The notes beneath the pieces are model-generated. The model saw only the letters and a list, made by a program, of their open reading frames with translations. It had not been told where the DNA came from and did no database searches. Positions 1 to 26,065 of a stretch of DNA of 64,000 nucleotides are shown here, piece after piece. Every line of letters begins with the position of its first letter. Positions within the stretch are counted from its first letter, which is position 1. Source of the stretch: Rhodospirillaceae bacterium (GTDB taxonomy: Bacteria; Pseudomonadota; Alphaproteobacteria; UBA8366; Aestuariispiraceae); NCBI GenBank assembly GCA_002709955.1, contig PAQY01000012.1:443679-507678 (forward strand). The letters run 5' to 3'. Made by a program: the position numbers and the translations under genes.

Positions 1-241
1 TTTCCGTCGGTCTATCGGTCCTTGGGCAAACATGACCATGGAACCAACCGGCAAGCTGATTTCGGCGGAGGAATATGAGCGCCGCAAGGGTGAATTCCTG
101 CCGACCGAAGCGGACCGTGCTTTCGTGAAAAGCCAGATGAAGGCCGTCATGGAACCCGGCAAGGTCGCAGGCTGGATTGCCCCGCCGGATCGCGGCATTA
201 ACAGTCAGCCGGTCGATTACGAATATGTCCACGTTCACTAA
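1..241 (+). CDS. boxB: Benzoyl-CoA 2,3-epoxidase subunit BoxB, C-terminal fragment
   Basis: The reading frame is open from base 2 and ends at a TAA at 239-241, so only the last ~80 residues are present and the gene starts before the window. The tail contains RRSIGPWANMTMEPTGKL, then GKVAGWIAPPDRGINSQPVD and ends in DYEYVHVH, which matches my memory of the BoxB C-terminus. BoxB is the diiron oxygenase that epoxidises benzoyl-CoA. Benzoate-CoA ligase and boxR within the next 9 kb support the call. The internal ATG at 32 is not a real start. A strong terminator follows at 266-297. The identification rests on a short fragment plus context. Confidence 0.8.
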   Translation, partial: FRRSIGPWANMTMEPTGKLISAEEYERRKGEFLPTEADRAFVKSQMKAVMEPGKVAGWIAPPDRGINSQPVDYEYVHVH

Positions 242-265
242 GAACGAGGTCACGTGAGCAACAAG

Positions 266-297
266 GGCGCGGAGATTTCCATCTCCGTGCCTTTTTT
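266..297 (+). terminator. Rho-independent terminator after boxB
   Basis: An 11-bp stem (GGCGCGGAGAT / ATCTCCGTGCC, one G-T pair) with a TTCC loop is followed directly by six T residues. It lies 25 bases after the boxB stop codon and closes that transcript before the repeat array. Confidence 0.85.
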
Positions 298-350
298 GTA
301 TTGGTGATGGATACTTTGGCCGGGGAATTACCGCGCCAATTGCGCCTGCC

Positions 351-1535
351 GCCCTGGATCCCGGATCAGGTCCGGGATGACGATGTATTAGACAAATATG
401 CCCTCACCCTGAGGAGCGCAGCGTCTCGAAGGGTGATCTTTCTGTAAGCACCGCACTTACAGTCCCTCCTTCGAGACGGTGCTGTCGCGCCTCCTCAGGA
501 TGAGAATGGGGCGGAAGGCCAGACGTGGAACGCCATAGTCCACCAGGTCCTCAGCGCCCTTCGCGTCTTCTCTGCGCCCTCTGCGATTAACCTTTACTCT
601 TCGTCTTACCCGCGCAGGCGGGTATCCAGGGCCACAAGCACCATTCGCACGCGCTGCCCTGGATCCCGGATCAGGTCCGGGATGACGATGTGCTAGACAA
701 ATATGCCCTCACCCTGAGGAGCGCAGCGTCTCGAAGGGTGATCTGTCTGTAAGCACCGCCCTTACAGTCCCTCCTTCGAGACGGCGCTGCCGCGCCTCCT
801 CAGGATGAGAGTGGGGCGGAAGGCCAGACGTGGAACGCCATAGTCCACCAGTTCCTCAGCGCCCTTCGCGTTTTCTCTGCGCCCTCTGCGGTTAACCTTT
901 ACGCCTCGTCACGCCCGCGCAGGCGGGTGGGTGGAGTCACAGGCTCCATTCGCGCGTGCTGCCCTGGATCCCGGATCAGGTCCGGGATGACGATGTATTA
1001 GACAAATATGCCCTCACCCTGAGGAGCGCAGCGTCTCGAAGGGTGATCTTTCTGTAAGCACCACCCTTACAGTCCCTCCTTCGAGACGGCGCTGTCGCGC
1101 CTCCTCAGGATGAGGGCGGTGCTTAAGGCCAGACGTGGAACACCATAATCCACCAGTTCCTCAGCGCCCTTCGCGTCTTCTTCGCGCCCTCTGCGGTTAA
1201 CCTTTACTCTTCGTCACGCCCGCGCAGGCGGGTGTCCAGGGCCACAAGCACCATTCGCACGTGCTGCTCTGGATCCCGGATCACGTCCGGGATGACGGCA
1301 GTGGAGAATGCAGAGGACGCGGAGAAACGCAGAGATCGCAAAGGCAATCATCAACTCGTCACGCCCGCGCCTCCTCAGGATGAGAGTGGGGCGGAAGGCC
1401 AGACGTGGAACACCATATTCCACCAGTCCCTCAGCGCCCTTCGCGTCTTCTCTGCGCCCTCCGCGGTTAACCTTTACGCCTCGTCACGGCCCGCGCAGGC
1501 GGGTGTCCAGGGCCACAGGCTCCATTAGCACGCTC
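351..1535. repeat. 305-bp tandem repeat array, four copies (fourth rearranged)
   Basis: Copies begin at 351, 656, 961 and 1266, an exact 305-base period each time. The first three are full length and nearly identical. The fourth keeps both ends but has lost or replaced its centre (about 1300-1370), and its tail degrades up to 1575. Each unit holds four shorter palindromic elements: a CCCGGATCAGGTCCGGGATG box, a facing pair CACCCTGAGGAGCG...CGAAGGGTG / CTCCTTCGAGAC...CTCAGGATGAG, a CAGCGCCCTTCGCGTCTTC segment, and CCGCGCAGGCGGGTGTCCAG. Short open frames here (1214-1571, both strands) follow the repeat and have no family features, so I do not call genes. Nothing else is seen in 298-1595. Confidence 0.9.
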
Positions 1536-1595
1536 CGTCAGGGCCCAGGCTCAAGGTCCGTCCGGGCGTGACGGTTCACTGAAGTCTGATCAGCG

Positions 1596-3590
1596 TCACA
1601 GGCTGGCTGCAACCGCGATGCCTTCGGCGATGGCGCGTTTGGCGTCGACTTCGGTGGCCCGTTTCGCGCCGCCGATCAGATGGGTGGGAATTCCAGCCGC
1701 CTGTAAGGGGGCCAGCAGGGGGGTCTGGGAGGTCTGCCCGGCGCATAGGACAATGGTGTCGCAAGGAAGGGTTCGCTGCTGGGTGCCCGCCAGAATGGTT
1801 AATCCGTGATCGTCGATGCGTTGATAGACAACATCGGGGATCATCTCGACCTTGGCCTTTAACAGGCTCAGGCGATGCACCCAACCGGTCGTCTTGCCGG
1901 GGCCGATCCCCATCTTTCCGGATCGGCGCTGTAACAGTGTCACCTCCCGGACGGGTGGGGGATTGTCTGCGGCTTGATCGACGCCCCAGTCCCGCCTAAA
2001 GGCATCAGGATTCAGGTGGGACTGGCTGTCACCTTCGGTCAGATAGACACTGACATCTATGCCGATGCCTCCGGCTCCAATCACGGCAACACGGTCGCCC
2101 GCCTGACGTTTCCCCGATAACAGATCGGCATAGGTCATGACACTGGGATGGGTGATGCCGTCAATGTCTGGGATGTGCGGCGCGACGCCACTGGCCAAGA
2201 CAACCTCGTCAAAGGCGGTCAATGCTTCAAGCGTTGCGGGGGTGGACAGTTTTAGGGTGATCCCAAGCTCCGCAATGCGCGTTGTATAGTAGCGCAGAGT
2301 CTCGTTAAATTCCTGCTTTCCTGGAATGGCGCTGGCCAGTCGGAATTGCCCGCCGATTTGATCCGACGCTTCAAACACGGTCACATTATGGCCCCGTTCG
2401 GCCAGAACTTCAGCGCAGGACAGGCCCGCGGGACCAGCCCCGACGACGGCCACCTTCTTTGGGGTTTGGGCGGGTGTCCAGGTCAACAATGTTTCGTGGC
2501 AGGCGCGGGGATTGACCAGACAGCTTGAAACCTCCCCCACAAAGTAATGATCCAGGCAGGCCTGGTTGCAGGCGATACAGGTATTGATCTGTTCAGGTGC
2601 CCCCCGTTGTGCCTTTTCAACAAAGGCCGCGTCGGCCAGGAAGGGACGGGCCATGCTGACCATATCCGCCTGGCCGCTGCTGAGGATTTGTTCGGCCGTT
2701 TCGGGCATGTTGATGCGATTGACTGCCGCGATGGGGATGCGCGTCAGGGCATCTTTAACCCGCGCAGTGGCCCAGGCAAATCCGCCACGGGGAACCGCCT
2801 GGGCGATGGTCGGGGTGCGTGCTTCATGCCAGCCGATGCCGGAATTGATGACATCGGCCCCTGCGGCTTCAACCCGCTGTGCCAGCTCGCGCACTTCTGA
2901 TAGGGGACTGCCGCCTTCGACAATATCCAGTACGGACAGGCGGTACATCAGGATGAAATTTGGTCCTGTTGCGGCGCGCACGGCCTGAATAATGCGCAGG
3001 GGGAACCGGATGCGGTTTTCAAAACTGCCGCCCCATTGATCGGTGCGATGATTGGTGCAGGGCGCGGTGAATTCGTTGATCAGGTATCCTTCGCTGCCCA
3101 TTACTTCGACGCCATCATAGCCTGCCTCTTTGGCAAAGACGGCGGCCTGTGCGAAGTCCGCAATGGTTTGTTCAATCTCCGCTTCCGTCATCTCCCGGGG
3201 CACGGTCTTGTTGATGGGCGCGCGTATGGGGGAGGGGGCAACGATCTCGCCATGATAGCCATAGCGCCCGGCATGCAGAATCTGCAACAGGATGCGCCCG
3301 CCGTGATCGTGCACAACCTGAGGGATCGGCTTATGAGCCTGGGCGATTTCCGGTGTGTTGAAGCTGGCGGATTTCCGGTCCAACTGGCCTGCCGCATTCA
3401 CCGAAAAGCCACCGGTAATGATCAGGGCACAGCCCTGTTTGGCGCGTTCCCCGTAAAACGCTGCCATACGATCAATGCCGCCGTCACGCTCTTCCAGCCC
3501 GGTATGCATGGACCCCATAATCAACCGATTGGGCAGCGTTTGGGTGCCAATTTGGATGGGGGTAAAAATATGGGGATAGGCTTCAGCCAT
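1596..3590 (-). CDS. fadH: FadH-type 2,4-dienoyl-CoA reductase (NADPH, FMN/FAD/4Fe-4S)
   Basis: At 664 residues it has the length and layout of E. coli FadH (about 672). An N-terminal old-yellow-enzyme TIM barrel carries Y169 (GSEGYLINEF) and H255 (GIGWHEARTP), in register with the catalytic Tyr166 and His252 of FadH. A 4Fe-4S cluster uses C338, C341, C345 and C357. FAD (VAVVGAGPAGLSCAE) and NADPH (VAVIGAGGIGIDVS) Rossmann motifs follow. The enzyme reduces 2,4-dienoyl-CoA to 3-enoyl-CoA. It is the last gene of the benzoate operon and overlaps the MaoC gene by 8 bases, so it may act on unsaturated CoA intermediates of ring cleavage (inference) rather than general fatty-acid oxidation. Confidence 0.88.
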   Translation of the reverse strand: MAEAYPHIFTPIQIGTQTLPNRLIMGSMHTGLEERDGGIDRMAAFYGERAKQGCALIITGGFSVNAAGQLDRKSASFNTPEIAQAHKPIPQVVHDHGGRILLQILHAGRYGYHGEIVAPSPIRAPINKTVPREMTEAEIEQTIADFAQAAVFAKEAGYDGVEVMGSEGYLINEFTAPCTNHRTDQWGGSFENRIRFPLRIIQAVRAATGPNFILMYRLSVLDIVEGGSPLSEVRELAQRVEAAGADVINSGIGWHEARTPTIAQAVPRGGFAWATARVKDALTRIPIAAVNRINMPETAEQILSSGQADMVSMARPFLADAAFVEKAQRGAPEQINTCIACNQACLDHYFVGEVSSCLVNPRACHETLLTWTPAQTPKKVAVVGAGPAGLSCAEVLAERGHNVTVFEASDQIGGQFRLASAIPGKQEFNETLRYYTTRIAELGITLKLSTPATLEALTAFDEVVLASGVAPHIPDIDGITHPSVMTYADLLSGKRQAGDRVAVIGAGGIGIDVSVYLTEGDSQSHLNPDAFRRDWGVDQAADNPPPVREVTLLQRRSGKMGIGPGKTTGWVHRLSLLKAKVEMIPDVVYQRIDDHGLTILAGTQQRTLPCDTIVLCAGQTSQTPLLAPLQAAGIPTHLIGGAKRATEVDAKRAIAEGIAVAASL

Positions 3591-4035
3591 TGCGGGTCTT
3601 GATCATCGTCATTGAGGTGAAGGTCAGCACCGTATCGCCGTCCTGATTTCGAACCTCGACATTGAAATGCACAATGCCGCGGTCGGGTTTTGTCTTTGAT
3701 TTCCGCGCTTCTGCGACGGTGAAGCGGGGGGTCAAAGTATCGCCGGGGCGCACAGGTTTGACCCAGCGGACTTCATCCATGCCGGGGCCCCCCAGGGACA
3801 CATCCTTGAAAAAGCCCATCTTGATAAAGGATGAAAAACTGGCGGCCAGCGTCTGAAATCCGCTGGCGATTAAGCCGCCAAAAGACCCTTCATTAACGGC
3901 ATAGTCTTTGTCGATATGAATCGCCTGAGGGTCATAGACCTTGGCAAATTCGATAATGAAGTCTTCCGTAAAATCCACGGCTGGGGCAACAATGACTTCC
4001 CCGACCGTATAGTCTTCAATGTAACGCCCGGTCAT
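3583..4035 (-). CDS. MaoC-family enoyl-CoA hydratase
   Basis: A 150-residue single hot-dog domain. The hydratase signature is visible as YDPQAIHID (D35, H40), followed by the SFGGLIASGFQTLA helix and the RWVKPVRPGDTL strand typical of MaoC proteins. Such enzymes add water to trans-2-enoyl-CoA. The start overlaps the stop of the MBL gene by 4 bases (ATGA) and the end overlaps fadH by 8, so it is translationally coupled in the benzoate operon. A hydratase next to a dienoyl-CoA reductase fits processing of dehydroadipyl-CoA, but the substrate is not shown by the sequence. Confidence 0.85.
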   Translation of the reverse strand: MTGRYIEDYTVGEVIVAPAVDFTEDFIIEFAKVYDPQAIHIDKDYAVNEGSFGGLIASGFQTLAASFSSFIKMGFFKDVSLGGPGMDEVRWVKPVRPGDTLTPRFTVAEARKSKTKPDRGIVHFNVEVRNQDGDTVLTFTSMTMIKTRNG

Positions 4036-5096
4036 GTGTTTGATACCTTCAGTTGATACAAGACGCGCCCATCGCTGACTGTGGCATCAACCTGACCCTG
4101 GGCGACCAGATAGGCCAGATGGGCGATGCTTTCACCCAGGGCGAACATGACATGTTCGTCCCCGATTGCGCGCGGAAAAATTGCTGGAACCAGGGTCCAG
4201 GCATCTTGAGGTCCGCCGTCTTCAAGTGCGTCCTTGATATCCTGCAACCGGTCGCGATGATGTTCCTGAATATCCGCGATGCGTGTGTGCAGGCCATAGA
4301 AGGGCAATTTATGGGACGGCAGGACCAGCGTATCGCTGGGCAGTGACTCTGCAATCCGCTCCAGGCTGCCCAGGAAATCACTCAAGGGTTCCGTGCCATC
4401 TTTGAACCAATGAACCGAGATATTGGGGGTGATTTTGGGTAGAACCTGATCGCCAGGGATAAAGACACGCAAATCCGGGCAATACAGGCCGGCCAGTTCT
4501 TCGCTGTGTCCTTCCAGCATCATAACCTGCCAGACATGCGCCCCGATCTTCAATTCGTCCTTATCGCGCAGGCGCGTGAAGGCCTGGGGCGGGTCAAAGA
4601 TACAGGTCCGATAAGCATTGCCAATGGCATTCAAGGGGCCGCACATATCCGCCGGGACCCCATTGCGCCGATAGAATTCCGTCTGGCCCGTGACATAAGT
4701 GTCATCGCCCATTTTCTCCAGAAGGGTACCAACCAGCCATTCCTTCTCGGACATCAGACAGGGGATCGAATAGGTTCGGGTCAGCCAGCCCGCCAGGCCA
4801 AAATGATCGGGGTGATGATGGGTGCAGATCAGGCGACCGGGCTTCCTGCCCTTGGCTGGGCCGTCAAAGACCGACTGCCATACATCGCATGTTTCTGATG
4901 TGCCAAATCCGGTATCGACAATGACCCATTCGTCGCCATCTTCGATCAGCCACAGGTTGATATGGTCTAGGGAGATTGGCAGGGCCATACGCAACCAATG
5001 CACCCCCGGCGCGACCTCTGTCATCGCCCCGGCGGGTGGGGCCTCTGTCCAGGGATGATGGATTGGATTGGGCTTTAGGGCAGGAAAAGCGGGCAT
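4032..5096 (-). CDS. MBL-fold metallo-hydrolase
   Basis: A 354-residue protein of the metallo-beta-lactamase superfamily. The zinc motif THHHPDH is at residues 92-98, with further ligands likely in LEGHSEE and IPGDQVL, and LPSHKLPFYGL near the C-terminal third. The long C-terminal segment resembles the helical extension of LACTB2-like hydrolases. AAGG lies 7 bases before the ATG. It is in the benzoate-CoA ligase operon, 9 bases after the alpha/beta hydrolase gene. A thioesterase or lactonase role is possible, but the substrate is unknown. Confidence 0.8.
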   Translation of the reverse strand: MPAFPALKPNPIHHPWTEAPPAGAMTEVAPGVHWLRMALPISLDHINLWLIEDGDEWVIVDTGFGTSETCDVWQSVFDGPAKGRKPGRLICTHHHPDHFGLAGWLTRTYSIPCLMSEKEWLVGTLLEKMGDDTYVTGQTEFYRRNGVPADMCGPLNAIGNAYRTCIFDPPQAFTRLRDKDELKIGAHVWQVMMLEGHSEELAGLYCPDLRVFIPGDQVLPKITPNISVHWFKDGTEPLSDFLGSLERIAESLPSDTLVLPSHKLPFYGLHTRIADIQEHHRDRLQDIKDALEDGGPQDAWTLVPAIFPRAIGDEHVMFALGESIAHLAYLVAQGQVDATVSDGRVLYQLKVSNT

Positions 5097-5105
5097 TGAA
5101 ATACC

Positions 5106-5888
5106 TTATTGTGTTGTGGGCGGGGCGGCGACAAATCCCCGGACCAATGCCAGAACTTCCTGCGGTTGATCCTTATGGGCCGAATGGCGGCAATTGGGCA
5201 GGATACGGACTTTCGCCGGTCCGGCAACGCCATTGGCAATGGCATGGACCTGGGCATCTGTGCCGTATTCATCCTGCTGTCCCTGAATGGCCAGCACGGG
5301 ACAGGAAATGGTGGGCAGGTATTCTTCGATAGTCCAATCCCGGAAGCTGGGGGCAAGCCAGGCCTGGTTCCACATCCAGAACGCCCCTTCCGGGTCATCG
5401 TGATATCGCCCCAGCCGGTCTTTCATATCGGTGGTTTCAAAGGCTACTTTCGCCTGTTCGATGGCAGCGACGCAAATATCCTCGTTAAAAACATGGGCCG
5501 CCAGGGTGATCACACCAGATACCGGGCGTCCCGCACCACCGGCATGGATCAACGCGATGGACCCGCCATCGGAATGCCCCAACAGGAAGGGCGCATCGAT
5601 TTTCAGACTGTCCAGCAGGGCGGGCAGGGCTTCCAAAGCCTCCCGGTGCATATAGCGATCCCCAACGGGATGCGTGGTGCAGGGCGTCGACCGGCCATAG
5701 CCATAGCGTGAATAGACCAGCACCGCATGGCCGGTTTCCTGGGCCAGCTTTTCTGGAAAATCCCGCCACATGGCAACGGATCCCAGGCCTTCATGCAGGA
5801 CGACGATGGTCGGGGCCTTGCCTGGATATAGGACGCATTCCAGTTGATGGCCCGTCACGTCCACGAAGAACGTTTCCGGATTGGTCAT
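5106..5888 (-). CDS. Alpha/beta hydrolase
   Basis: 260 residues of alpha/beta-hydrolase fold. The oxyanion region is LHEGLGSVAMW, the nucleophile elbow is GHSDGGS with Ser106, and a late Asp/His pair is visible around IQGQQDEYGT and NCRHSAHKDQP. The ATG shares one base with the TGA of the benzoate-CoA ligase gene (TGATG), a sign of coupled translation. box clusters often encode a hydrolase or lactonase, so a role in hydrolysing a CoA ester or lactone by-product of the pathway is plausible but unproven. Confidence 0.8.
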   Translation of the reverse strand: MTNPETFFVDVTGHQLECVLYPGKAPTIVVLHEGLGSVAMWRDFPEKLAQETGHAVLVYSRYGYGRSTPCTTHPVGDRYMHREALEALPALLDSLKIDAPFLLGHSDGGSIALIHAGGAGRPVSGVITLAAHVFNEDICVAAIEQAKVAFETTDMKDRLGRYHDDPEGAFWMWNQAWLAPSFRDWTIEEYLPTISCPVLAIQGQQDEYGTDAQVHAIANGVAGPAKVRILPNCRHSAHKDQPQEVLALVRGFVAAPPTTQ

Positions 5889-7444
5889 CAGGTCGCATCC
5901 CGCAGTTTGAATCGCTGAATCTTGCCAGTCGCGGTTTTCGGCAGTTCATCCAGAAATTCAATCCAGCGGGGGTATTTGTAACTTGCCAGTTCCGCCTTCA
6001 CGAAGGCCTTGATCTCATCAGACAGGGCGTCATCGGGTCGGATGCCATCGCGCAGGACGATAAAGGCCTTTGGCTTGATCAGGCCATCCTGGTCGGCATG
6101 ACCGACAACAGCGACTTCCAGCACTTTTTCGTGTCGGACAATGGCGCTTTCGACTTCCACAGGCGACACATAGATACCGCCAACTTTCAGCATATCGTCG
6201 GATCGACCGGCATGAGTATAGACGCCGTTTTCATCGCGCACATATTTGTCGCCGGTGCGGGTCCACATCCCCTGGAAGGTTTCGCGGCTCTTGTCACGCT
6301 GGTTCCAGTACAGAATTGCGGAGGTTGGGCCGGAGACTTCCAGCATGCCCATTTCCCCGGCGCCCGTCAGGACCGTTCCGTCATCATCTACCAGCCGCAG
6401 GTCGTATCCAGGAACTGGCTTCCCGGAAGATCCCGGAATGATATTGTCCAGCGTGTTGCTGAGAAAGATGTGCAGCATTTCGGTTGAACCAAGCCCGTCC
6501 AGAATATCGACGCCGGTCGCCTCCTTGAACCGGCGCAACAGATCAGCGGGCAGGGCCTCGCCAGCGGATGTCGCAAGACGCACCGCATGGTCGCCCTTTT
6601 TCGGCAATTCACCGCTGGCCAACAGCATGCCATACAGGGTTGGAACGCCATAGAAAATGGTCGGCTTTTCTTCGCGCAGAATTCTGGCGACGGATTTTGC
6701 ATCCGGTGGGCCGGCCAACAGGACAGATGTTGCCCCAACCGACATGGGGAAGGTCAGCCCATTGCCCAGACCATAGGCAAAAAACAGTTTTGCCGCGGAA
6801 AAACAGATGTCCTTTTCATGAATGCCCAGGACAGGGATGGCATATAGATTGGCGGTGTCGATTAAGTGTGTCTGCAGGTGAACCGCGCCTTTAGGCTTTC
6901 CGGTCGTGCCGGAGGTATAAAGCCAGAAACACATATCGGACGCCCGGGTCGGCGCGGTCTGATAGTCTGTGGGTTTGCCGTTCAGTTCATCTTTCAACAG
7001 GGCATAGCCCTTGCCATCGGCACCCGACACGATGACGGTGTCCAGAAAGGGGTGATCTGCCAGATGCGGCAGGAAGGCATCCAACAGTGCTTCAGATACG
7101 ACCAGCACCCGCGCGCGGCTGTCATCCAGCATGAATTTGTAATCATCTGCGGTCAGGCGCGTATTGACGGGGATTGGGACGGCACCGGCGCGAATTGCAC
7201 CCAAAAAGCAGGTTGGCCAATCGATTGTGTCCGGCAGGCACAAGAGCACACGTTCTTCTATCCGCACGTTATGGTCGGCCAGAACATTGGCGAACTGGTT
7301 CACGCGCGCATCCAACTGGGCATAGGTTGTGGGCCCGGATACATCGATAAAGGCCGTCTTGTCGCCGCGCCCGGCTTTCAGGTTCCGCCCGATCAGATCA
7401 TCGGCAGCATTGTATAAATCGTCCGTCGCAGAGTGCACGGCCAT
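5888..7444 (-). CDS. bclA: Benzoate-CoA ligase
   Basis: An ATP-dependent adenylate-forming ligase that makes benzoyl-CoA. The phosphate loop YTSGTTGKPKG is at 176-186, KLFFAYGLGNG is the family's middle motif, and the C-terminal catalytic lysine lies in PKTATGKIQRFK. Of two in-frame ATGs I chose the inner one at 7444 (518 residues), because GGAGGG sits 6 bases before it, overlapping the first ATG at 7459. Overall layout and length match BadA/BclA. Location between boxB and boxR supports benzoate as substrate. The closest alternative is a hydroxybenzoate- or substituted-benzoate-CoA ligase. Confidence 0.88.
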   Translation of the reverse strand: MAVHSATDDLYNAADDLIGRNLKAGRGDKTAFIDVSGPTTYAQLDARVNQFANVLADHNVRIEERVLLCLPDTIDWPTCFLGAIRAGAVPIPVNTRLTADDYKFMLDDSRARVLVVSEALLDAFLPHLADHPFLDTVIVSGADGKGYALLKDELNGKPTDYQTAPTRASDMCFWLYTSGTTGKPKGAVHLQTHLIDTANLYAIPVLGIHEKDICFSAAKLFFAYGLGNGLTFPMSVGATSVLLAGPPDAKSVARILREEKPTIFYGVPTLYGMLLASGELPKKGDHAVRLATSAGEALPADLLRRFKEATGVDILDGLGSTEMLHIFLSNTLDNIIPGSSGKPVPGYDLRLVDDDGTVLTGAGEMGMLEVSGPTSAILYWNQRDKSRETFQGMWTRTGDKYVRDENGVYTHAGRSDDMLKVGGIYVSPVEVESAIVRHEKVLEVAVVGHADQDGLIKPKAFIVLRDGIRPDDALSDEIKAFVKAELASYKYPRWIEFLDELPKTATGKIQRFKLRDAT

Positions 7445-7485
7445 GTCGTTCCCTCCCATGGGTCATTAAATGTCGAGCCTGGTTA

Positions 7486-7962
7486 TTATTCTTTTTTGGC
7501 TCTTGTGAACTCAATTGCGCCCTTTGGCAGCAGATACAGAACCACCGCCTTGCCACCCGTCACTGTTGGATAGTGCGCGGATCCGGGCTCGTAAACCAGC
7601 CAGCCCTTGCCGTGATCATCAAATTCAGCATCCGAATCTTCGGGCAGGATCAGGTCGATTTCCCCGCCCGGATGGGCATGGTGCGGCCCGCGACAGTCAT
7701 CCATGACGACGACATCGACAGAAAAATCATGCTCCCCCAGGCTGGGTTTGATCGGGCGGCTATACTGAATGCCGTGGTTTTCATTCTCACACAGCCAGCC
7801 TTCGGCTATGCCGGCTTTACAGGCGGCCTGGATGTTTTTCACAACAGGCCCATCGCTGGGGAATGTCTCGTTCAGAAAGGCCCCTAGTTCCGCGTTCAAC
7901 GGGCGGGTGCCAATCGTGGTCGCGACGTCGTTCATCAATGCGTTGAAGTCGTCTTGCGTCAT
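7486..7962 (-). CDS. DUF4863-family protein (4-hydroxylaminobenzoate lyase-like)
   Basis: A 158-residue protein starting MTQDDFNALM at 7962, where GGAGG lies 4 bases upstream; the frame is open much further upstream, across the flavodoxin gene, but that part is noise. A cupin-like core is suggested by HHAHPGGEIDLILPED and YEPGSAHYPTVTGG. I recognise it as the DUF4863 family, which recurs in aerobic benzoyl-CoA gene clusters and includes PnbB-type hydroxylaminobenzoate lyases. Its exact job in benzoate catabolism is not known to me. It lies 31 bases after flavodoxin and 41 bases before benzoate-CoA ligase. Confidence 0.75.
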   Translation of the reverse strand: MTQDDFNALMNDVATTIGTRPLNAELGAFLNETFPSDGPVVKNIQAACKAGIAEGWLCENENHGIQYSRPIKPSLGEHDFSVDVVVMDDCRGPHHAHPGGEIDLILPEDSDAEFDDHGKGWLVYEPGSAHYPTVTGGKAVVLYLLPKGAIEFTRAKKE

Positions 7963-7993
7963 GGATCCTCCGGTCAAATGAGGTTTTGTCAGG

Positions 7994-8458
7994 TCAGGCC
8001 GCTTCCAGGGCCTGTTCGAACCAGCCTTCAGCCCATTCGGCGGCCATGTCTTCCGGCAGATCGCCAGACGAAGCGTCGTGTTCAACACGGTCGCCCAAGC
8101 GGGTCGCCCCCAGCTTTGCCAACAGGTCGTCAAATTTGCGCCCGCCGAAGCAGAATGTCTGCATATAGGTCATGTCGCCCAGCGCGAATACGCCGTATTG
8201 CACGCCTGTCAGGTCCGGTGCCTGCGACTCCAGCGCGTCAAAGAATTTGCGCGCATTGTCGGGCACTTCGCCCTGACCATAGGTCGAGGTGCAAATAATA
8301 TACAATGGACCAGCGGATAAGGCCGTCGGGTCCAGGTCGTCCATTAACAGGATTTCCGGATCTGCGCCTTTCTCTGTTAAGACATCGACGATTTCATCCG
8401 CCACCAATTCTGCTGTGCCGGTCATTGTGCCGACGAGTATCTTGACCTCGTTGCTCAT
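7994..8458 (-). CDS. Flavodoxin domain protein (MioC-like)
   Basis: 154 residues forming a single flavodoxin domain. The FMN phosphate loop is VGTMTGTAELVADE, followed by the STYGQGEVPDNA loop and the VFALGDMTYMQTFCFGGR segment that binds the isoalloxazine ring. It should be a soluble one-electron carrier. It is the first gene of the seven-gene benzoate operon, 150 bases divergent from boxR. No boxA reductase is visible in this window, so it could feed electrons to BoxB, which is inference from location. Confidence 0.85.
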   Translation of the reverse strand: MSNEVKILVGTMTGTAELVADEIVDVLTEKGADPEILLMDDLDPTALSAGPLYIICTSTYGQGEVPDNARKFFDALESQAPDLTGVQYGVFALGDMTYMQTFCFGGRKFDDLLAKLGATRLGDRVEHDASSGDLPEDMAAEWAEGWFEQALEAA

Positions 8459-8520
8459 TCGCTGCCCTATCGTTTCTGTTTATCCCAACCATTCAGGCCC
8501 TTGCTTGGCGCTGCTTTTAG

Positions 8521-8596
8521 GAACTATAGTGCATGTTATAGAAAGTGAAAAGAACCATAGTGCATTTTGTGATCTTCTTTCAGGGTACAGTGTTCT
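8521..8596. promoter_or_regulatory. Candidate BoxR operator region
   Basis: The 153-bp divergent region between the benzoate operon and boxR holds two identical ATAGTGCA cores (8526-8533 and 8557-8564), each preceded by GAAC, 31 bases apart. A weaker third copy, ACAGTGTT, is at 8587-8594, 30 bases further. That places the sites on the same DNA face. BzdR/BoxR regulators are known to bind TGCA-containing repeats, so these are good operator candidates. Binding itself is inferred. Confidence 0.6.
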
Positions 8597-8611
8597 TTTT
8601 GGGGGGACGCG

Positions 8612-9517
8612 ATGAGTGAAAAGCAAACCGAAGATCCAGCCCTTCGGGAGTATCTTTCCGGTTTGGGTGAACGTGTGCGCCAGGCGCGGGCCAAACGAGG
8701 CATGGCGCGGCGCATTCTGGCCCGGGACTCTGGCGTGTCGGAGCGTTATCTGGCGCAATTGGAAGGGGGATCGGGCAATCCCACCGTCGCGGTCCTGCGA
8801 CAAATTGCGGAGGCTGTGGACTATCCCCTGACAGAATTGGTGACAGGCGACGGCGTTCCTGAAACGGCGTCAGAGCTTGTGCCCTTGATCGCACGGCTGC
8901 GGGGGTTTGGGCCTGAACAACTGACTCAGGCAAAGCTGGCGCTGGATCGCATTGGCAATGGCAAGGGGGCTGTTGGGGATGTCGAAGCGGCCAAGGCCAA
9001 GCGAATCGCCCTGATCGGACTGCGTGGGGCGGGTAAGTCCACCTTGGGCCGTCATCTTGCGATGCGGTTGAAGGCCCCCTTTGTCGAGCTTAATCGGCTG
9101 GTCGAACGGGATTATGGTGGCAGCATTGGTGAAATTCTTGCGTTGAGTGGTCAGCCTGCCTTTCGGCGGTTGGAACGCCGCGCCTTGGAATCAACAATCG
9201 CTGACAGCGACACCGCCATTATCGCGACAGGGGGCGGGATTGTATCAGAACCAGCAACGTTCCAACTGTTGCTGGATCGCTGTCATACAATCTGGATTCA
9301 GGCGCAACCGGAAGAACATATGAACCGCGTTATCGCACAGGGGGATTACCGGCCCATGGCGCGTAATGACGAGGCGATGGAGGATTTGAAGGCAATCCTT
9401 GCGGCACGGGAATCCGCCTATTGCCAGGCCGATGCCAGTGTTGATACCAGTGGCAGTTCGGTGGAAGACAGCCTGATCCTGTTGGAAGAAGCGGCCCGGT
9501 CCCTATTGCGTGGGTAG
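8612..9517 (+). CDS. boxR: BoxR/BzdR-type transcriptional regulator (XRE HTH + shikimate-kinase fold)
   Basis: 301 residues in two domains. Residues ~11-75 are an XRE helix-turn-helix (RILARDSGVSERYLAQLEGG). Residues ~129-300 are a shikimate-kinase-like domain with Walker A GLRGAGKS at 136-143. This fusion is specific to BzdR and BoxR, where the second domain senses benzoyl-CoA and relieves repression. The gene is divergent from the benzoate operon and follows repeated TGCA sites. A GGGGGG run precedes the ATG. Its 3' end overlaps the convergent AbrB-family gene by 15 bases. Confidence 0.92.
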   Translation: MSEKQTEDPALREYLSGLGERVRQARAKRGMARRILARDSGVSERYLAQLEGGSGNPTVAVLRQIAEAVDYPLTELVTGDGVPETASELVPLIARLRGFGPEQLTQAKLALDRIGNGKGAVGDVEAAKAKRIALIGLRGAGKSTLGRHLAMRLKAPFVELNRLVERDYGGSIGEILALSGQPAFRRLERRALESTIADSDTAIIATGGGIVSEPATFQLLLDRCHTIWIQAQPEEHMNRVIAQGDYRPMARNDEAMEDLKAILAARESAYCQADASVDTSGSSVEDSLILLEEAARSLLRG

Positions 9518-10582
9518 GTCTGTTTCCGGCGGTTCCTTGTGCAGGAACATTTTGTAAATGATGGGCGCGGCCACCACGACATAAACGATGCGGACGATGT
9601 GGTGGGTTGCGACAAAGGCGACATCAACGCCCAGGGCCAGGGCAACCAGGCTCATTTCCGCCAGACCGCCTGGTGAATAAGCCAGAACGGCGCTTTGGAA
9701 GGGAACGCCGCCAACCTCATAGACCAATAAGGCGAAAAACACGGTCGCTGTCAGAATGATAACCGTGGATCCCATGCCCAGGGCGATGGTGCGGAAAACT
9801 TCTGATCGGGCGACACCGACAAAGCGACAGCCAATGATCGTCCCCATGATCCATTGGGCGCAATTCACGATCAACAGCGGCGGTGTCGCAGCGGTCATGC
9901 CCGCCAGATGCAGGCTGGCGCTGGCCAGCATGGGGCCGACCAGCATCGGTGCTGGGATGCGCAGGACTTTTGCAATTGGATAGCCAACCAGGCCACAGGC
10001 CCCCAGGATCAGATAGTCCTGCCAGGCGACCGCACTTAAGGCGACGCCAAATCGGGATCGATCTGTCATGTCGATATCACTGACAAACCGGAAGACGACC
10101 GGGACGATCAGGACGGTCAACAGAATGCGGCTGGCATGGGTCAGCACTATCCGCCGGTCATCCCCGCCCATGGCCCCGCCGACGATCATCATTTCATTCA
10201 GCCCGCCCGGCATGGCAGAGAAATAGGCTGTGGGGCGATCATATCCCCCTATTTTCCGGAAAAATGGATAGGCGGACAGTCCCGCAACACCCACAAAGGC
10301 CGCCAGAAAGGCCAGGCTGATAAGCCATTCCCCGGCGCGATCTGCCATATCTGGTGAAAAACCCGCCCCCAACATCACACCCAGAACCATGATCATAGGC
10401 TGGCGCAGCGGCATCGGTCCCTGAATTGGCAGTCCGATAATGGACGCCGCCGTGCAGGTGATCATTGCCCCCAGCATCCAGGGCAGGGGCAGGGTCAGCC
10501 AGTTGGCAACAAAACCACCACAGGCACCCAGACCCATCGCCAGGGCGATCCTGCCCAGATTTGTTGGGTTCATCGCAATCAT
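9503..10582 (-). CDS. AbrB-family (PF05145-type) integral membrane protein
   Basis: A polytopic membrane protein of about 359 residues with roughly ten hydrophobic segments. It shows the internal duplication of the family: MPGGLNEMMIVGGAMGGD in the first half is echoed by YSPGGLAEMSLVALALGVD in the second. Family members are annotated as AbrB or putative ammonia monooxygenase, but a transporter role is more likely. The start is uncertain. I used ATG 10582 because the hydrophobic part begins just after; ATG 10573 is an alternative and neither has a strong ribosome site. It is convergent with boxR, overlapping by 15 bases. Confidence 0.8.
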   Translation of the reverse strand: MIAMNPTNLGRIALAMGLGACGGFVANWLTLPLPWMLGAMITCTAASIIGLPIQGPMPLRQPMIMVLGVMLGAGFSPDMADRAGEWLISLAFLAAFVGVAGLSAYPFFRKIGGYDRPTAYFSAMPGGLNEMMIVGGAMGGDDRRIVLTHASRILLTVLIVPVVFRFVSDIDMTDRSRFGVALSAVAWQDYLILGACGLVGYPIAKVLRIPAPMLVGPMLASASLHLAGMTAATPPLLIVNCAQWIMGTIIGCRFVGVARSEVFRTIALGMGSTVIILTATVFFALLVYEVGGVPFQSAVLAYSPGGLAEMSLVALALGVDVAFVATHHIVRIVYVVVAAPIIYKMFLHKEPPETDLPTQ

Positions 10583-10789
10583 GTACAGTCTTTCACTTAG
10601 GCAGGTCGAACAGCGAAACGCCATGCCAGATACCATCACAGCGCATGATTGATCCGACCAAAGGGATGGTGCAGTGATGCGTTTATGCAAAACTGTGATA
10701 ATTGATTATGCCATGTTTAGACAAGGACCGGTCAGAATACCAGCCCTTGCGCCATGATCTGAATGCCTAACAGCTTTGCCGCCCACTCT

Positions 10790-12496
10790 TTAACGCGGCA
10801 CGTCTTCCGGAAAGTATTTGAACAAGGTCAGGATCGGGTTCGGGGCCGCCTGGCCCAGACCACAGATGGATGCATCCATCATCGTCTTGGACAATTGCTC
10901 CAACAGCGGCACGTTCCAGGTATCCTGCTGCATCAGTTTCACGGCCTTTTCCGTGCCAACGCGACAGGGGGTGCATTGACCGCAGCTTTCATCCTCAAAG
11001 AACTTCATCAGGTTCAGGGCGACATCTGCAATATTGTCCTGATCGGACAGGACGACCACGGCGGCGGACCCGATGAAACTGCCATAGGGTTGCAGCGTAT
11101 CAAAATCCAGCGGGATATCGCCCAGGCTGGCTGGCAGGATACCGCCGGATGCGCCGCCGGGTAGGTATCCCTTGAACGTTTGGCCGTCCTGCATGCCATC
11201 GCAATAGTCATCGATCAATTGACGGATGGTGATCCCGGCAGGGGCCAGTTTGACCCCAGGATTCTTGACGCGACCGGATACAGAAAAGCTGCGCAATCCC
11301 TTGCGTTCATTGGCCCCTTGGCTGGAAAACCACTCCGCGCCATTTTCCAGAATTTCCGGCACCCAATGCAGGCTTTCCACATTGTTGACCAGGGTGGGGC
11401 GACCAAACAGCCCTTCCTGCGCAACATAAGGCGGGCGATGGCGGGGCAGGCCGCGCTTGCCCTCAATTGATTCGATCATCGCGCTTTCTTCGCCACAGAT
11501 ATAGGCCCCGGCACCCCGGCGCAGGACAATCTTGGTGTGGTTGCTCAGGCCAGCCGCTTCCAGTTTCGCAATCTCTGCCTTTAACAGGGCAATGACTTCG
11601 GGATACTCGTCGCGCATATAGATATAGACGGCCTCTGCCTCCACCGCCCAGGCGCCGATCAGCATGCCTTCCAGGAATTTATGGGGGGTGCGTGTCAGAT
11701 AGTGATGATCTTTGATCGTGCCGGGTTCGCCTTCATCGCCATTGACCGCCATCAGACGGGGCTTGGGGGCCATGCGCACAAACTTCCATTTGCGACCAGT
11801 GGGAAATCCAGCGCCCCCCAGTCCGCGCAGATTGGCCCCTTCCAGAACCTCAATCACCTGTTCAACAGAAATGCTGCCATTCAGGCAACTGTGCAGATGC
11901 CGGTATCCCCCCGCCGTGCGATAGGCGGCCAGGTCCTGATAGTCTGGAATGTCTGGATGGCTGTCATGGGCTTCAGCGGCTGCGGCCAGGGCTGCAACGC
12001 TGGTTTGGGTGTGATGCTTGTGGCCTACTTCGGCGACAGGGGCCTGATGGCAGCGACCCATACAGGGCGCGCGCATAACCCGCACATTCTGGCCCACCTG
12101 ACCCGGCAGATCTGCCAGAATCTTTTGCGCGCCCATCAGCTCACAGCTTAAGGAATCACAGACCCGGATCGTCAGGGCCGGTGGGGGAACTTCCCCTTCC
12201 ATCACCAGATCGAAATGGGCATAGAAGCTGGCAACCTCAAAAACCTCCGCCATGCCCAGCTTCATTTCTGATGCCAGGGCATTAAGGTGGCGTGCGTGCA
12301 GATGGCCGTAAGTGTCTTGAATTAAATGCAGATATTCAATTAGCTCGTCACGTTGAAGCGTCCGGCCCGCCAATAGCGCCTGGATTTCTTCCAGCGCGGT
12401 TGGATCCAGTTGTCGCCCCTTGGAATGTGGGGTCGTCTTTCGGCGGCCAAATCCAGGGCTGCGAAATTGATGGACGTTGGTGTCGCCATCCGACAT
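10790..12496 (-). CDS. NuoE-NuoF fusion diaphorase (FdsB/HoxF-like NADH oxidoreductase subunit)
   Basis: 568 residues. Residues ~30-180 are NuoE-like with the 2Fe-2S ligands C113, C118, C145 and C149. The rest is NuoF-like, with FMN motif LGGAGFPTGRKW, NADH motif GDEGEPGTIKDH, GAYICGEESAMIESIEG, and a 4Fe-4S set in ESCGQCTPCRVGTEK plus SICGLGQ. GGAGAG precedes the ATG. All cofactor motifs are intact, so it should oxidise NADH. It resembles the beta subunit of NAD-dependent formate dehydrogenase, but no catalytic alpha subunit or hydrogenase gene is near. It may therefore pass electrons to another carrier. Confidence 0.88.
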   Translation of the reverse strand: MSDGDTNVHQFRSPGFGRRKTTPHSKGRQLDPTALEEIQALLAGRTLQRDELIEYLHLIQDTYGHLHARHLNALASEMKLGMAEVFEVASFYAHFDLVMEGEVPPPALTIRVCDSLSCELMGAQKILADLPGQVGQNVRVMRAPCMGRCHQAPVAEVGHKHHTQTSVAALAAAAEAHDSHPDIPDYQDLAAYRTAGGYRHLHSCLNGSISVEQVIEVLEGANLRGLGGAGFPTGRKWKFVRMAPKPRLMAVNGDEGEPGTIKDHHYLTRTPHKFLEGMLIGAWAVEAEAVYIYMRDEYPEVIALLKAEIAKLEAAGLSNHTKIVLRRGAGAYICGEESAMIESIEGKRGLPRHRPPYVAQEGLFGRPTLVNNVESLHWVPEILENGAEWFSSQGANERKGLRSFSVSGRVKNPGVKLAPAGITIRQLIDDYCDGMQDGQTFKGYLPGGASGGILPASLGDIPLDFDTLQPYGSFIGSAAVVVLSDQDNIADVALNLMKFFEDESCGQCTPCRVGTEKAVKLMQQDTWNVPLLEQLSKTMMDASICGLGQAAPNPILTLFKYFPEDVPR

Positions 12497-12602
12497 TGGA
12501 CTCTCCTAACCGGTCGCTGAAAACATCTTTGGATTCTGTGGCATAGTGAACAAGGCCACAGGGACCATGACTGTTTACCGGAAAGTCACAACACCATTCT
12601 GG

Positions 12603-12821
12603 TCACTGGGCGTCAATATCTGCATCCGCCGCGACCAGTCCAATAACGGATGTGTCGATCAGAACCTTACCGCGTTCTTCAAAATTGACGGTTACCCGCG
12701 TTCCGACGCAGGATTGGACCTGGCCGATGCCCCAATCGGGGGCGTCCGGGTGGCGCACATACACGCCGGGAACAAGGTCGCCTGGCACCAGCGTATTGTT
12801 GTCTGCGTAACTTGATAGCAT
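12603..12821 (-). CDS. DUF3553 domain protein
   Basis: A 72-residue protein whose core PGVYVRHPDAPDWGIGQVQS and RVTVNFEERGKVLID matches the DUF3553 family, a small beta-barrel module common in alphaproteobacteria. The same module occurs at the end of some UvrD-type helicases, so a nucleic-acid-linked role is possible, but none is shown here. It is divergent from chpT with 80 bases between. Confidence 0.85.
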   Translation of the reverse strand: MLSSYADNNTLVPGDLVPGVYVRHPDAPDWGIGQVQSCVGTRVTVNFEERGKVLIDTSVIGLVAADADIDAQ

Positions 12822-12901
12822 TGTGTGACCCTATCTGTATCCGCCCATCGATTGTGCAGTGCAGCATTTTATATCGCGATTCGCAAGTAAAGGCATTAAA
12901 A

Positions 12902-13555
12902 ATGTCACATTCCGATCCGTTTCAACATTCCGCCCGTCTGGCTGATCTGACGGCATCCCGACTGATCCATGAAATTGTGGGTCCCATTGGGGTGATATCG
13001 AACGGTTTGGAACTGATGGAGGAATTGGGGGCCGACGCGGGGGTCGACGCGCTGACCCTGGTTTCCAACAGTGCGCGGGACGCCACAAATCGGTTAAAGT
13101 TTTATCGCATGGCCTATGGTCGCTCAGGGATTGAAATCACCAGTATGGCGCAATTGCGCGCCGTGGCGGTGGCTTTTATGGCGGATCAGCCGCGCCATGA
13201 TTTATCCTGGCCCTTGCCCCCGATCCTGCCCAGCCTTTCCCAGGGGATGGGGCGGGTTATGTTGATCCTGATCGAGGTTGCAAAGGAGTGTCTGCCCCGC
13301 GGCGGCCTGGTGCGCGTGGCTGTCGAAGATGGCGTGGCGCATGTCATCGCCCGGGGAAATAGTCAGAGGGAAGAACCACATATGTCTGATGTATTGGGGC
13401 TGGCCCTGACGGGCAAGGCGTCAATGGAAGACCTGACCCCGCAAACCGTGCATGGTGCTTTGGCCTGGGCGTTTATCCATGCCATTGGCGGTCAGATTAC
13501 GATTCAGTCGGCGGATGGGGCCTTACAGTTTACAGTTACACTCCCCACGGATTAA
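12902..13555 (+). CDS. chpT: Histidine phosphotransferase ChpT
   Basis: 217 residues of the ChpT/HPTransfase family. The phospho-accepting His23 sits in ASRLIHEIVGPIGVISNG, followed by a helical hairpin and a degenerate, ATP-binding-deficient GHKL-like domain ending in GGQITIQSADGALQFTVTLP. In Caulobacter ChpT relays phosphate from CckA to CtrA and CpdR. The start at 12902 fits MSHSDPFQH with AAAGG upstream; a longer frame from 12812 has no support. A response regulator and cheR follow in the same direction. Confidence 0.85.
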   Translation: MSHSDPFQHSARLADLTASRLIHEIVGPIGVISNGLELMEELGADAGVDALTLVSNSARDATNRLKFYRMAYGRSGIEITSMAQLRAVAVAFMADQPRHDLSWPLPPILPSLSQGMGRVMLILIEVAKECLPRGGLVRVAVEDGVAHVIARGNSQREEPHMSDVLGLALTGKASMEDLTPQTVHGALAWAFIHAIGGQITIQSADGALQFTVTLPTD

Positions 13556-23078: not shown

Positions 23079-24281
23079 TTACACTCTTTCCAGGCCGATC
23101 GCGATGCCTTGGCCGACACCGATGCACATGGTTGAGAGGGAGCGCTTTCCGCCGGTCAGGCTGAGTTCCAGCGCAGCGGTGCCGGTGATCCGCGCACCGG
23201 ACATGCCCAGCGGGTGCCCTAAGGCGATGGCCCCGCCATTGGGATTGATATGGGGTGCCGCTGGATCCAGACCCAATTCCCGCAGGACCGCAATTCCCTG
23301 AGATGCGAAAGCCTCGTTCAGTTCAATTACGTCAAAATCAGAGGGCTTCAGGCCCAACAAGGCACACAGTTTTTGGGTTGCAGGCGCAGGGCCCATTCCC
23401 ATGATGCGGGGTTCAACACCGGCCGTCGCACCGCCCAGAATGCGGGCAATCGGGGTTAAGCCATGGGCCTTGGCAGCCGCTTCGGATGCGATGATCAAGG
23501 CTGCGGCCCCGTCATTGACGCCAGACGCATTACCCGCCGTTACGGTGCCGCCCTTGCGGAACGGTGTGCCCAAGGCTGCCAGCTTTTCCATGGAGGTGCG
23601 ACGGGGATGTTCATCGGTATCCACGACAATGGGATCGCCCTTGCGCTGGGGGATGGTGACGGGCGTGATTTCTTTTGCCAGACGACCATTGCCCTGGGCG
23701 GTGCTGGCCTTTTCCTGGCTGGCGAGGGCAAAGGCGTCCTGATCCTCACGGCTGACCTTGAAGTCTTCAGCTACGTTCTCGCCGGTCTCCGGCATGGAAT
23801 CGATACCATATTGCTGTTTCATCAGCGGATTCACAAAGCGCCAGCCAATGGTGGTATCGTAAATCTCTGCCGTGCGGGAGAAGGCCGCATCCGCTTTTGG
23901 CATGACGAAGGGCGCGCGGGACATGCTTTCCACACCGCCTGCAATGGCCAGGGAAATTTCACCTGCCTTGATGGCGCGGGCGGCGGCGATGACGGCATCC
24001 ATGCCCGAACCACACAGACGGTTCATCGTGGTTCCGGGGACGGAAACCGGCAGGCCTGCCAGAAGGCTGCTCATCCGGGCGACATTGCGGTTGTCTTCAC
24101 CGGCCTGGTTGGCACAGCCGAAATAGACTTCCTCAACAGCGGCCCAATCCACCTTGTCATTGCGCGCCATCAGCGCCTTGATCGGAACCGCGCCCAGATC
24201 GTCGGCACGCACGGCAGACAGGATGCCGCCAAAACGGCCGATTGGGGTGCGGATATAGTCACAAATATAGGCATCAGTCAT
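23079..24281 (-). CDS. pcaF: 3-oxoadipyl-CoA thiolase
   Basis: 400 residues of thiolase fold. The acylated Cys lies in MNRLCGSGMDAVIAAARAIK, the base His in NPNGGAIALGHPLGMSGAR, and the second Cys in LSTMCIGVGQGIAIG. IRTPIGRFGGILS and YFGCANQAGEDNRNVARM are typical of the PcaF/PaaJ group. It cleaves 3-oxoadipyl-CoA to succinyl-CoA and acetyl-CoA. The start is ATG 24281, one base after the catJ stop. Order with catI-catJ supports the beta-ketoadipate substrate. The thiolase alone could also serve phenylacetate. Confidence 0.9.
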   Translation of the reverse strand: MTDAYICDYIRTPIGRFGGILSAVRADDLGAVPIKALMARNDKVDWAAVEEVYFGCANQAGEDNRNVARMSSLLAGLPVSVPGTTMNRLCGSGMDAVIAAARAIKAGEISLAIAGGVESMSRAPFVMPKADAAFSRTAEIYDTTIGWRFVNPLMKQQYGIDSMPETGENVAEDFKVSREDQDAFALASQEKASTAQGNGRLAKEITPVTIPQRKGDPIVVDTDEHPRRTSMEKLAALGTPFRKGGTVTAGNASGVNDGAAALIIASEAAAKAHGLTPIARILGGATAGVEPRIMGMGPAPATQKLCALLGLKPSDFDVIELNEAFASQGIAVLRELGLDPAAPHINPNGGAIALGHPLGMSGARITGTAALELSLTGGKRSLSTMCIGVGQGIAIGLERV

Positions 24282-24282
24282 A

Positions 24283-25065
24283 TCAGGCAGCCTTCTCTTT
24301 TTTACCATGGGCGGCATCGGTGCGGGCATGAAGCGCGCGCAGGACGTCCAGTTCTTCCGTCGTGGGGGGCGGTGTTTCAGTCACACTGTCAGCAAAAGCA
24401 ACAGTCCAGCCAACTGTTGCCTGTACGGCGTCGCGTGTCACGCCTGGATGCAATGATGTAACAGTGAATTCCTTGCTGATCGGGTCCGGTTCCCAGACGG
24501 CTAGATCGGTTACCAGCAGCATCGGCCCCTGGGTCGTGATGCCCAATCGCTTGCGATGATCCCCGCCTTCGCCATGTCCGAAGGAGGTGTAAAAGTCGAT
24601 CTTGTCGACAAATCCCCGCAAGGATTGCTTCATGGTGATAAACACCTTCTGGCAGGAAGACGCGATTTCCGGGGCACCGCCGCCGCCGGGCAGGCGGATT
24701 TTCGGAGTGTGATAATCGCCAATCACTGTGGTGTTGATATTGCCAAAGCGGTCAATCTGTGCGCCGCCCAGGAAGCCAACGGAAATCCGGCCCCCCTGCA
24801 GCCAATAGCGAAACATTTCCGGCACGGAGACGGTGGTCACCGCTGTTTCGCACAATTCCCCATCCCCGATGGAGAGGGGCAGCACATCCGGTTTGGTGCC
24901 GATGGTGCCGCTTTCATAAATCAGCGTGATATCGGGCGCATGGGTAAGGCGCGCCAGATTACAGGCGGCAGAGGGCGCACCGATCCCGACAAAGACCACA
25001 TCGTCATTTTTCAACGCGCGGGCTGCGGCAATGGTCATCATTTCTGTGGCTGAGAAGCTGCTCAT
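24283..25065 (-). CDS. catJ: 3-oxoadipate CoA-transferase subunit B (CatJ-type)
   Basis: 260 residues of the CoA-transferase beta family. The catalytic Glu is in the ESGTIGTKPDVLPLSIG region, and GGGGAPEIASS is the glycine-rich CoA loop. FLGGAQIDRFGNINTTVIG is conserved in CatJ and glutaconate CoA-transferase beta subunits. The start (ATG 25065) overlaps the catI stop by 4 bases, so translation is coupled. The CatI/CatJ type differs from the shorter PcaI/PcaJ type. Substrate is inferred from the adjoining pcaF and IclR regulator. Confidence 0.85.
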   Translation of the reverse strand: MSSFSATEMMTIAAARALKNDDVVFVGIGAPSAACNLARLTHAPDITLIYESGTIGTKPDVLPLSIGDGELCETAVTTVSVPEMFRYWLQGGRISVGFLGGAQIDRFGNINTTVIGDYHTPKIRLPGGGGAPEIASSCQKVFITMKQSLRGFVDKIDFYTSFGHGEGGDHRKRLGITTQGPMLLVTDLAVWEPDPISKEFTVTSLHPGVTRDAVQATVGWTVAFADSVTETPPPTTEELDVLRALHARTDAAHGKKEKAA

Positions 25066-25922: not shown

Positions 25923-26012
25923 GCTGTGCCTCGCCGGTTGGTCATGGGACATCATATGATGACGTGAAGAAAAGGACGATAGGGCCAGGTCGTTCCTTGA
26001 CGCAAGGAATAT

Positions 26013-26046
26013 GTTCGCATTATAGAATAATGTTCATATTACGAAC
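26013..26046. promoter_or_regulatory. Candidate operator for the IclR-type regulator
   Basis: Two similar 15-base partly palindromic sites, GTTCGCATTATAGAA (26013-26027) and GTTCATATTACGAAC (26032-26046), 19 bases apart. The second is an inverted repeat with GTTC/GAAC arms. They lie in the 143-bp divergent region between catI and the regulator, close to the regulator's start, where PcaR/PobR-type proteins usually bind. Binding is inferred. Confidence 0.55.
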
Positions 26047-26065
26047 AAATTCGAAAGTTTGATTT

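Follow-up and report, generated by a model that had tools for sequence, protein, structure and literature searches.

A short, cindoxin-like flavodoxin as the probable electron donor to BoxB in box gene clusters without boxA

How is the BoxB epoxidase of the benzoyl-CoA (box) pathway supplied with electrons where no boxA gene is found? The question arises from a 64,000-nucleotide stretch of a Rhodospirillaceae bacterium (assembly GCA_002709955.1, contig PAQY01000012.1; G000:C11:443679-507678), hereafter the window, whose genome of 4.23 Mb in 24 contigs is 99.6% complete. BoxA carries flavin adenine dinucleotide (FAD) and two [4Fe-4S] clusters. In the window a flavodoxin stands first in the benzoate-CoA ligase operon, as a first-pass annotation had seen, and we propose, with a probability of about 0.8 and from gene content and linkage, that it replaces BoxA as electron donor to BoxB. 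The features on which the argument turns are these:

L009:17061-18719, before the window, plus strand: boxC (TIGR03222), directly upstream of boxB
1-241, plus strand: 3′ end of boxB (475 aa; gene start 1187 bp before the window)
5888-7459, minus strand: benzoate-CoA ligase (TIGR02262, 729.9 bits; cut-off 375.25)
7994-8458, minus strand: cindoxin/MioC-type short flavodoxin (PF00258), proposed to supply BoxB with electrons instead of BoxA
8459-8611, no strand assigned: divergent promoter region separating the flavodoxin operon from boxR and containing two ATAGTGCAT repeats
8612-9517, plus strand: BoxR-type regulator with helix-turn-helix and shikimate-kinase-like domains (PRK08154, 367.8 bits; cut-off 204)
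10790-12496, minus strand: NuoE-NuoF fusion (NuoEF), assigned by homology as the beta subunit of an NAD-linked formate dehydrogenase, outside the box system

BoxB exceeded its family cut-off (TIGR03225, 764.9 versus 499.1 bits) and matches the solved BoxB 3per at 4e-195; the dihydrolase BoxC likewise exceeded its own (910.4 versus 712.3 bits), and BoxR is present too. The "box region" originally drawn at 5888-12496 does hold the ligase, the flavodoxin and boxR, but boxB lies outside that interval. The flavodoxin is on the same strand as the ligase and matches Flavodoxin_1 (PF00258) at 104.7 bits (cut-off 25). Its closest relatives among solved chains are cindoxin (4oxx; phmmer, 8.7e-26), then MioC (2hna) and YqcA (2m6r), and an AlphaFold2 model (predicted local distance difference test score, 92.4) gave 4oxx as the top fold match (template-modelling score, 0.86/0.87); domain and predicted fold together place it among the short-chain flavodoxins. 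In the proposed pathway, the ligase would activate benzoate to benzoyl-CoA, the di-iron BoxB would epoxidise it and BoxC would open the ring, with the flavodoxin, a small protein predicted to bind flavin mononucleotide (FMN), supplying the electrons for BoxB in BoxA's stead. An NADPH-dependent FAD reductase, of the FprA type near boxB in some relatives and probably an unlinked Fpr here, would reduce the flavodoxin, giving the chain NADPH, reductase, flavodoxin, BoxB.

The first-pass annotation had offered its route for the case that boxA is absent, or as one acting beside BoxA, and the absence holds: the sequence just before the window contains boxC and boxB with no boxA adjoining them, and no protein of the genome exceeded the cut-off of the boxA model (459.2 bits), the best match, at 72.9 bits, being a CysJ-like protein. 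Likewise, boxA over cut-off was found in 0/14 genomes of the family and 0/43 of the order, and boxB exceeded its cut-off in 11 and 21 of these, respectively; the order genomes are 62-100% complete and the 11 family members with boxB 91-100%. The boxA model works: run as a positive control on 36 genomes behind named boxB loci, it gave a boxA exceeding the cut-off in eight (703-771 bits in six of these, 659 in another, and for L087 473 together with a second piece). The boxA of L087 (G076:C1:2055570-2056797) looks frameshifted, because it was matched in two adjoining pieces. Among genomes of the flavodoxin type, 33 of the 36 checked had no boxA over cut-off anywhere (12/12 from the order and 21/24 behind named loci, the latter taking in 24 of the 34 flavodoxin loci described below); the exceptions are L037, with boxA at the same locus, and the Ramlibacter loci L062 and L069. 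The genome of L081 gave a partial boxA match of 103.9 bits, below the cut-off.

Linkage was assessed in the best 80 of 593 boxB loci from a BoxB scan, with markers located by tblastn; because only these 80 were taken, the sample leans towards BoxB proteins resembling that of the window. Flavodoxin without boxA was found at 33 loci, boxA without flavodoxin at 21, both at one (L037) and neither at 25, several of the last being short contigs, for totals of 34 flavodoxin loci, all with the gene beside boxR, and 22 boxA loci. Profile searches from the flavodoxin and boxA families over the open reading frames of all 80 loci gave no further case. Restricted to the 40 loci that hold boxR, the ligase and 1.6 kb or more of downstream sequence, the counts were 20, 15, 1 and 4 in the same order; the Fisher p values, which ignore shared ancestry, are ~1e-6 to 1e-5. 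At the 34 flavodoxin loci boxR and boxB were each found 34 times, boxC 33 and the ligase 27. The idea that this flavodoxin feeds BoxB is thus strengthened, the gene being tied to boxB, boxC and boxR across genomes and hardly ever sharing a locus with boxA.

The remaining genes of the ligase operon supply other possible partners:

7486-7962, minus strand: DUF4863/PnbB-like gene (PF16155, 159.2 bits; start set by hand at an internal ATG)
5106-5888, minus strand: alpha/beta hydrolase with a weak PcaD-like match (box clusters in the accessible text of PMC6449761 include a "lactonase")
4032-5096, minus strand: metallo-beta-lactamase (MBL)-fold hydrolase
3583-4035, minus strand: MaoC-like hydratase
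1596-3590, minus strand: old yellow enzyme (OYE)/FadH-like flavin oxidoreductase, last gene of the operon

The order is flavodoxin, DUF4863/PnbB, ligase, alpha/beta hydrolase, MBL hydrolase, MaoC and OYE/FadH-like, with gaps of at most 31 bp or overlapping genes. Since the window's flavodoxin heads an operon shared with an OYE-type flavin enzyme, it could serve that enzyme, the DUF4863 protein or the hydrolases instead of BoxB. At the 34 flavodoxin loci (E<1e-20), however, the OYE gene was found at none, MaoC and the MBL hydrolase at one each, DUF4863 at three (again 3/34 when re-run with another query) and the hydrolase at seven, and G038, from another family, has the order ligase, flavodoxin, boxR, boxC, boxB without OYE, DUF4863 or hydrolases. 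Because the other operon genes are so rare, BoxB alone remains as a constant partner in need of electrons, and service to another enzyme of the operon is quite improbable.

In the family to which the window belongs, a flavodoxin of at least 60% identity is present in 11/11 boxB genomes and in 0/3 without boxB, among which only G001 has a distant flavodoxin (41%). This distribution also bears on whether BoxB is fed by an unlinked general ferredoxin or reductase, with the flavodoxin as an accessory, which we regard as unlikely. Several boxB groups in which neither boxA nor flavodoxin was found speak for such a supply, as does the accessible text of PMC4498308, where contact between BoxA and BoxB seems transient and little BoxA is needed, so that BoxB would need only a transient donor. 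Against it stand the presence pattern in the family, the conserved linkage beside boxR at 34 loci, and an FprA-type reductase that is seen beside boxB only at loci lacking boxA.

In a BoxB tree of 95 rows, built by a quick method, one 58-row clade (Shimodaira-Hasegawa-like approximate likelihood-ratio test, SH-aLRT, 100) comprises 44 rows with flavodoxin, 11 with none, two with boxA and one with both, and boxA is present in 19/19 rows of the classic boxA clade; one flavodoxin row, L083, falls outside the 58-row clade. Distances of flavodoxin and BoxB are strongly correlated (Mantel r=0.876, 41 rows, 0/5000 permutations; species relatedness uncorrected). The three boxA loci within the flavodoxin clade (L037, L053 and L065) have the order boxC-boxA-boxB, not boxC-boxB-boxA, and boxA therefore looks like a later insertion there. 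At Ramlibacter L062 and L069, boxA belongs to a classic boxR-boxC-boxB-boxA cluster elsewhere in the genome that has a ligase of its own, and the flavodoxin adjoins a different boxB, the second locus of L069 consisting of ligase, flavodoxin, boxR, boxC and boxB.

Several observations weigh against replacement of BoxA by the flavodoxin. The flavodoxin/boxA split largely tracks two BoxB clades, and a paired test for independent switches was not significant, because only three independent contrasts exist, and gives no support by itself. The box flavodoxins do not form one clean clade in their own tree, where three long-branched outsiders fall inside. At L062 the flavodoxin locus matched flavodoxin, boxR and boxB only, with no boxC or ligase match, and the flavodoxin lies ~1 Mb from boxB in G010 and G012 and ~42 kb in G004; in G010 and G004, both inspected, it is still together with the ligase operon and boxR. 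Four loci (L040, L042, L048 and L091) have boxR and the ligase, yet neither boxA nor flavodoxin, and neither gene was found at loci of Myxococcota, Reyranella/Enhydrobacter, Binataceae, Rokuibacteriota, Eremiobacterota and Phenylobacterium (names as in record titles). Nine boxB genomes of another family, f2 (G014-G019, G021, G022 and G024), have no boxA over cut-off and no flavodoxin at E<=1e-18. An FprA-type reductase, finally, was not found at E<=1e-40 in six genomes of the window's genus. BoxB can therefore evidently be served another way, and f2 and the other groups with neither gene probably rely on some other, unlinked electron supply. Open reading frames near boxB were read at twelve of the loci with neither gene, and no redox partner was recognised except an FprA-type reductase at L032. 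Among the genomes or loci with boxB and neither gene are L126, L127 and L128 (family f2), L079, L080 and L089.

The reductase is best approached through the relatives. A gene of the FprA/adrenodoxin-reductase type lies downstream of boxB, directly or within ~1.5 kb, at 8 of the 80 loci (L030, L032, L033, L034, L035, L038, L052 and L061), of which seven are flavodoxin loci, one (L032) has neither gene and none has boxA. The family genomes G007 and G008 carry this type as well, and the G007 copy matches FprA (1lqt) at 4e-71. The known partners of FprA and adrenodoxin reductase are ferredoxins or adrenodoxin. Because FprA was not found in the window's genus, we infer the reductase of the window's genome: a ferredoxin-NADP reductase on contig C16 (L136:1108-1938), which matches 2bgi at 1.6e-108 and scores 153 bits with PRK10926, below the cut-off of 390, probably feeds the flavodoxin as a ferredoxin/flavodoxin-NADP reductase. 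This Fpr is the only one of four candidate substitutes for BoxA in the genome that resembles a general flavodoxin reductase, and it too lies off the box contig. The other three, all on contigs other than that of the box genes and not like general flavodoxin reductases, are a diflavin reductase resembling CysJ on C24, a BenC/MmoC-like reductase on C7 whose gene adjoins that of a PaaA/PaaC-family protein, and, on C22, a reductase next to a Rieske-type protein, this last pair being identified by reading. At L012 (G000:C7:18744-22172) the BenC/MmoC-like reductase gene has an alpha/beta-hydrolase-like gene (identified by reading) on one side and the PaaA_PaaC-family gene on the other, possibly another oxygenase cluster.

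A different source of electrons had been suggested in the first-pass annotation, namely NADH, passed by a lone NuoEF diaphorase to the flavodoxin and on to BoxB. The fusion is complete, as had been described, with 2Fe-2S_thioredx, Complex1_51K and NADH_4Fe-4S all over cut-off, and in five genomes of the genus it lies 2-9 kb from the flavodoxin, which favours such a route. However, its residues 1-567 align with residues 1-564 of 7e5z_B, the beta chain of a tungsten-containing formate dehydrogenase of solved structure, at 3.1e-232, that is, over the full length. No formate dehydrogenase gene accompanies it locally, as had been reported, but the genome does hold an alpha gene on another contig (G000:C3:36893-39628; 68% identity to an alpha query that is itself over the TIGR01591 cut-off). 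In six relatives (G004, G006, G008, G014, G025 and G035) NuoEF and the alpha gene are no more than 5 kb apart, the arrangement that had been named as telling against the diaphorase. NuoEF (at least 71%) and the alpha gene (at least 64%) occur together in 12 of the 14 family genomes; both are missing at those identities in the boxB genomes G007 and G013, and NuoEF is present in all three boxB-negative members. By a hand count in which some matches are fragments, NuoEF (at least 60% identity) is found in 33/43 order genomes, 15 of them without boxB, and within the available flanks it was found at 0/80 box loci. The genes flanking it in boxB-negative G001 and G002 are homologous to those for CheR (57-61%) and a response regulator (70-71%) in the window, so that its position beside these genes is independent of the box operon. 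NuoEF thus follows the alpha gene rather than boxB; by homology and distribution it is a formate dehydrogenase beta subunit outside the box system, and a diaphorase route to the flavodoxin is extremely improbable. According to the accessible text of PMC6449761, BoxC releases formate, and two Azoarcus strains have formate dehydrogenase genes close to their box genes; a loose metabolic link is therefore possible, in which the formate dehydrogenase containing NuoEF may oxidise the formate from BoxC.

An alignment of 29 of the 41 box flavodoxins has 20 invariant columns, and the loops TMTGTA and STYGxGxVPDN, which we take to be FMN-binding, are largely conserved. Fold and loops are shared with the short-chain flavodoxins MioC and YqcA; the box-linked proteins differ from these in their linkage and in the majority pattern LGD-x-TY-x-x-TF-x-x-GG and HDASSG-x-x-PE, a distinction drawn from the alignment. 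A plasmid search gave best outside relatives of ~50% identity. The Phaeobacter one has no box genes within 8 kb; several of the eight examined adjoin FAD-dependent oxidoreductases, two of these also being near oxygenase genes (Klebsiella, P450; Pseudooceanicola, Rieske-type). Neither an FAD-dependent oxidoreductase nor an oxygenase was seen by the Tsukamurella relative, and the Aeromonas one is without annotation. As far as the accessible text of PMC9687028 goes, cindoxin is a flavodoxin-like carrier that passes electrons from NADPH and cindoxin reductase to P450cin, and the Escherichia coli flavodoxin reductase can stand in for cindoxin reductase. As with P450cin, a catabolic oxygenase would be served by a dedicated short FMN flavodoxin; in contrast to P450cin, the acceptor would be a di-iron epoxidase, and the reductase is FprA-like where linked and unlinked in the window's genome.

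Compared with the Azoarcus evansii-type BoxAB epoxidase, the window shares BoxB, BoxC, BoxR, the ligase and the divergent boxR arrangement, and differs in that no boxA was found in the genome and a flavodoxin gene heads the ligase operon. BoxA is regarded as a component of the benzoyl-CoA epoxidase. In the accessible text of PMC10803450, a marker survey treated 13 ligase clusters without a BoxA or BoxB gene as incomplete and their lower pathway as one that "should not be functional"; clusters from Polaromonas, Ramlibacter and Ferrovibrio were among the 13. The Polaromonas and Ramlibacter loci of the present sample are of the flavodoxin type and appear, from that text, to be the same cases. For clusters lacking boxA, loss of function is very hard to credit: BoxB and BoxC are intact and conserved, the 58-row BoxB clade carries flavodoxin in 44 rows and flavodoxin with boxA in one more, and no boxA over cut-off occurs across an order with 21 boxB genomes. 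We consider it likely that a second, flavodoxin-dependent class of epoxidase, with its own BoxB clade, exists in alpha-, beta- and other Proteobacteria, in which a cindoxin-like flavodoxin and an FprA-type or general NADPH reductase replace BoxA, and that some "incomplete" clusters are working pathways; a third class using neither may exist. If so, the box pathway would be more widespread than present gene markers indicate, BoxB would take a single-FMN carrier in lieu of an iron-sulphur flavoprotein, and the two systems could be compared directly in one cell in those Ramlibacter strains that have both. A literature search, which missed most subscription journals, found no publication joining BoxB with a flavodoxin donor.

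Regulation can be approached through the 153-bp gap between flavodoxin and boxR, in which the two ATAGTGCAT repeats contain TGCA at 8530 and 8561; BoxR and BzdR bind TGCA repeats according to the accessible text of PMC6449761. Summed by hand over 33 flavodoxin-boxR gaps (L056 excluded, its gap being >800 bp), TGCA was observed 74 times versus ~17.9 expected from base composition, L068 being one gap without any. The ligase operon, flavodoxin included, is probably under BoxR control.

Of the other genes nearby, those upstream of boxC appear, by reading, to encode an ABC transporter. The stretch 3′ of boxB (333-1560) is a tandem array of a ~305-bp intergenic repeat, with three copies of 300 nt that are 90-92% identical, plus partial copies; window positions 1-3000 as query gave 82 matches in the genome, including itself, mostly to this array. 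An Rfam scan of positions 1-13000 returned no match. Further on, at 23079-26827, lie pcaF (3-oxoadipyl-CoA thiolase, over cut-off), two CoA_trans-family genes and a PcaR/PcaU-type regulator, which probably represent the lower part of the benzoate pathway.

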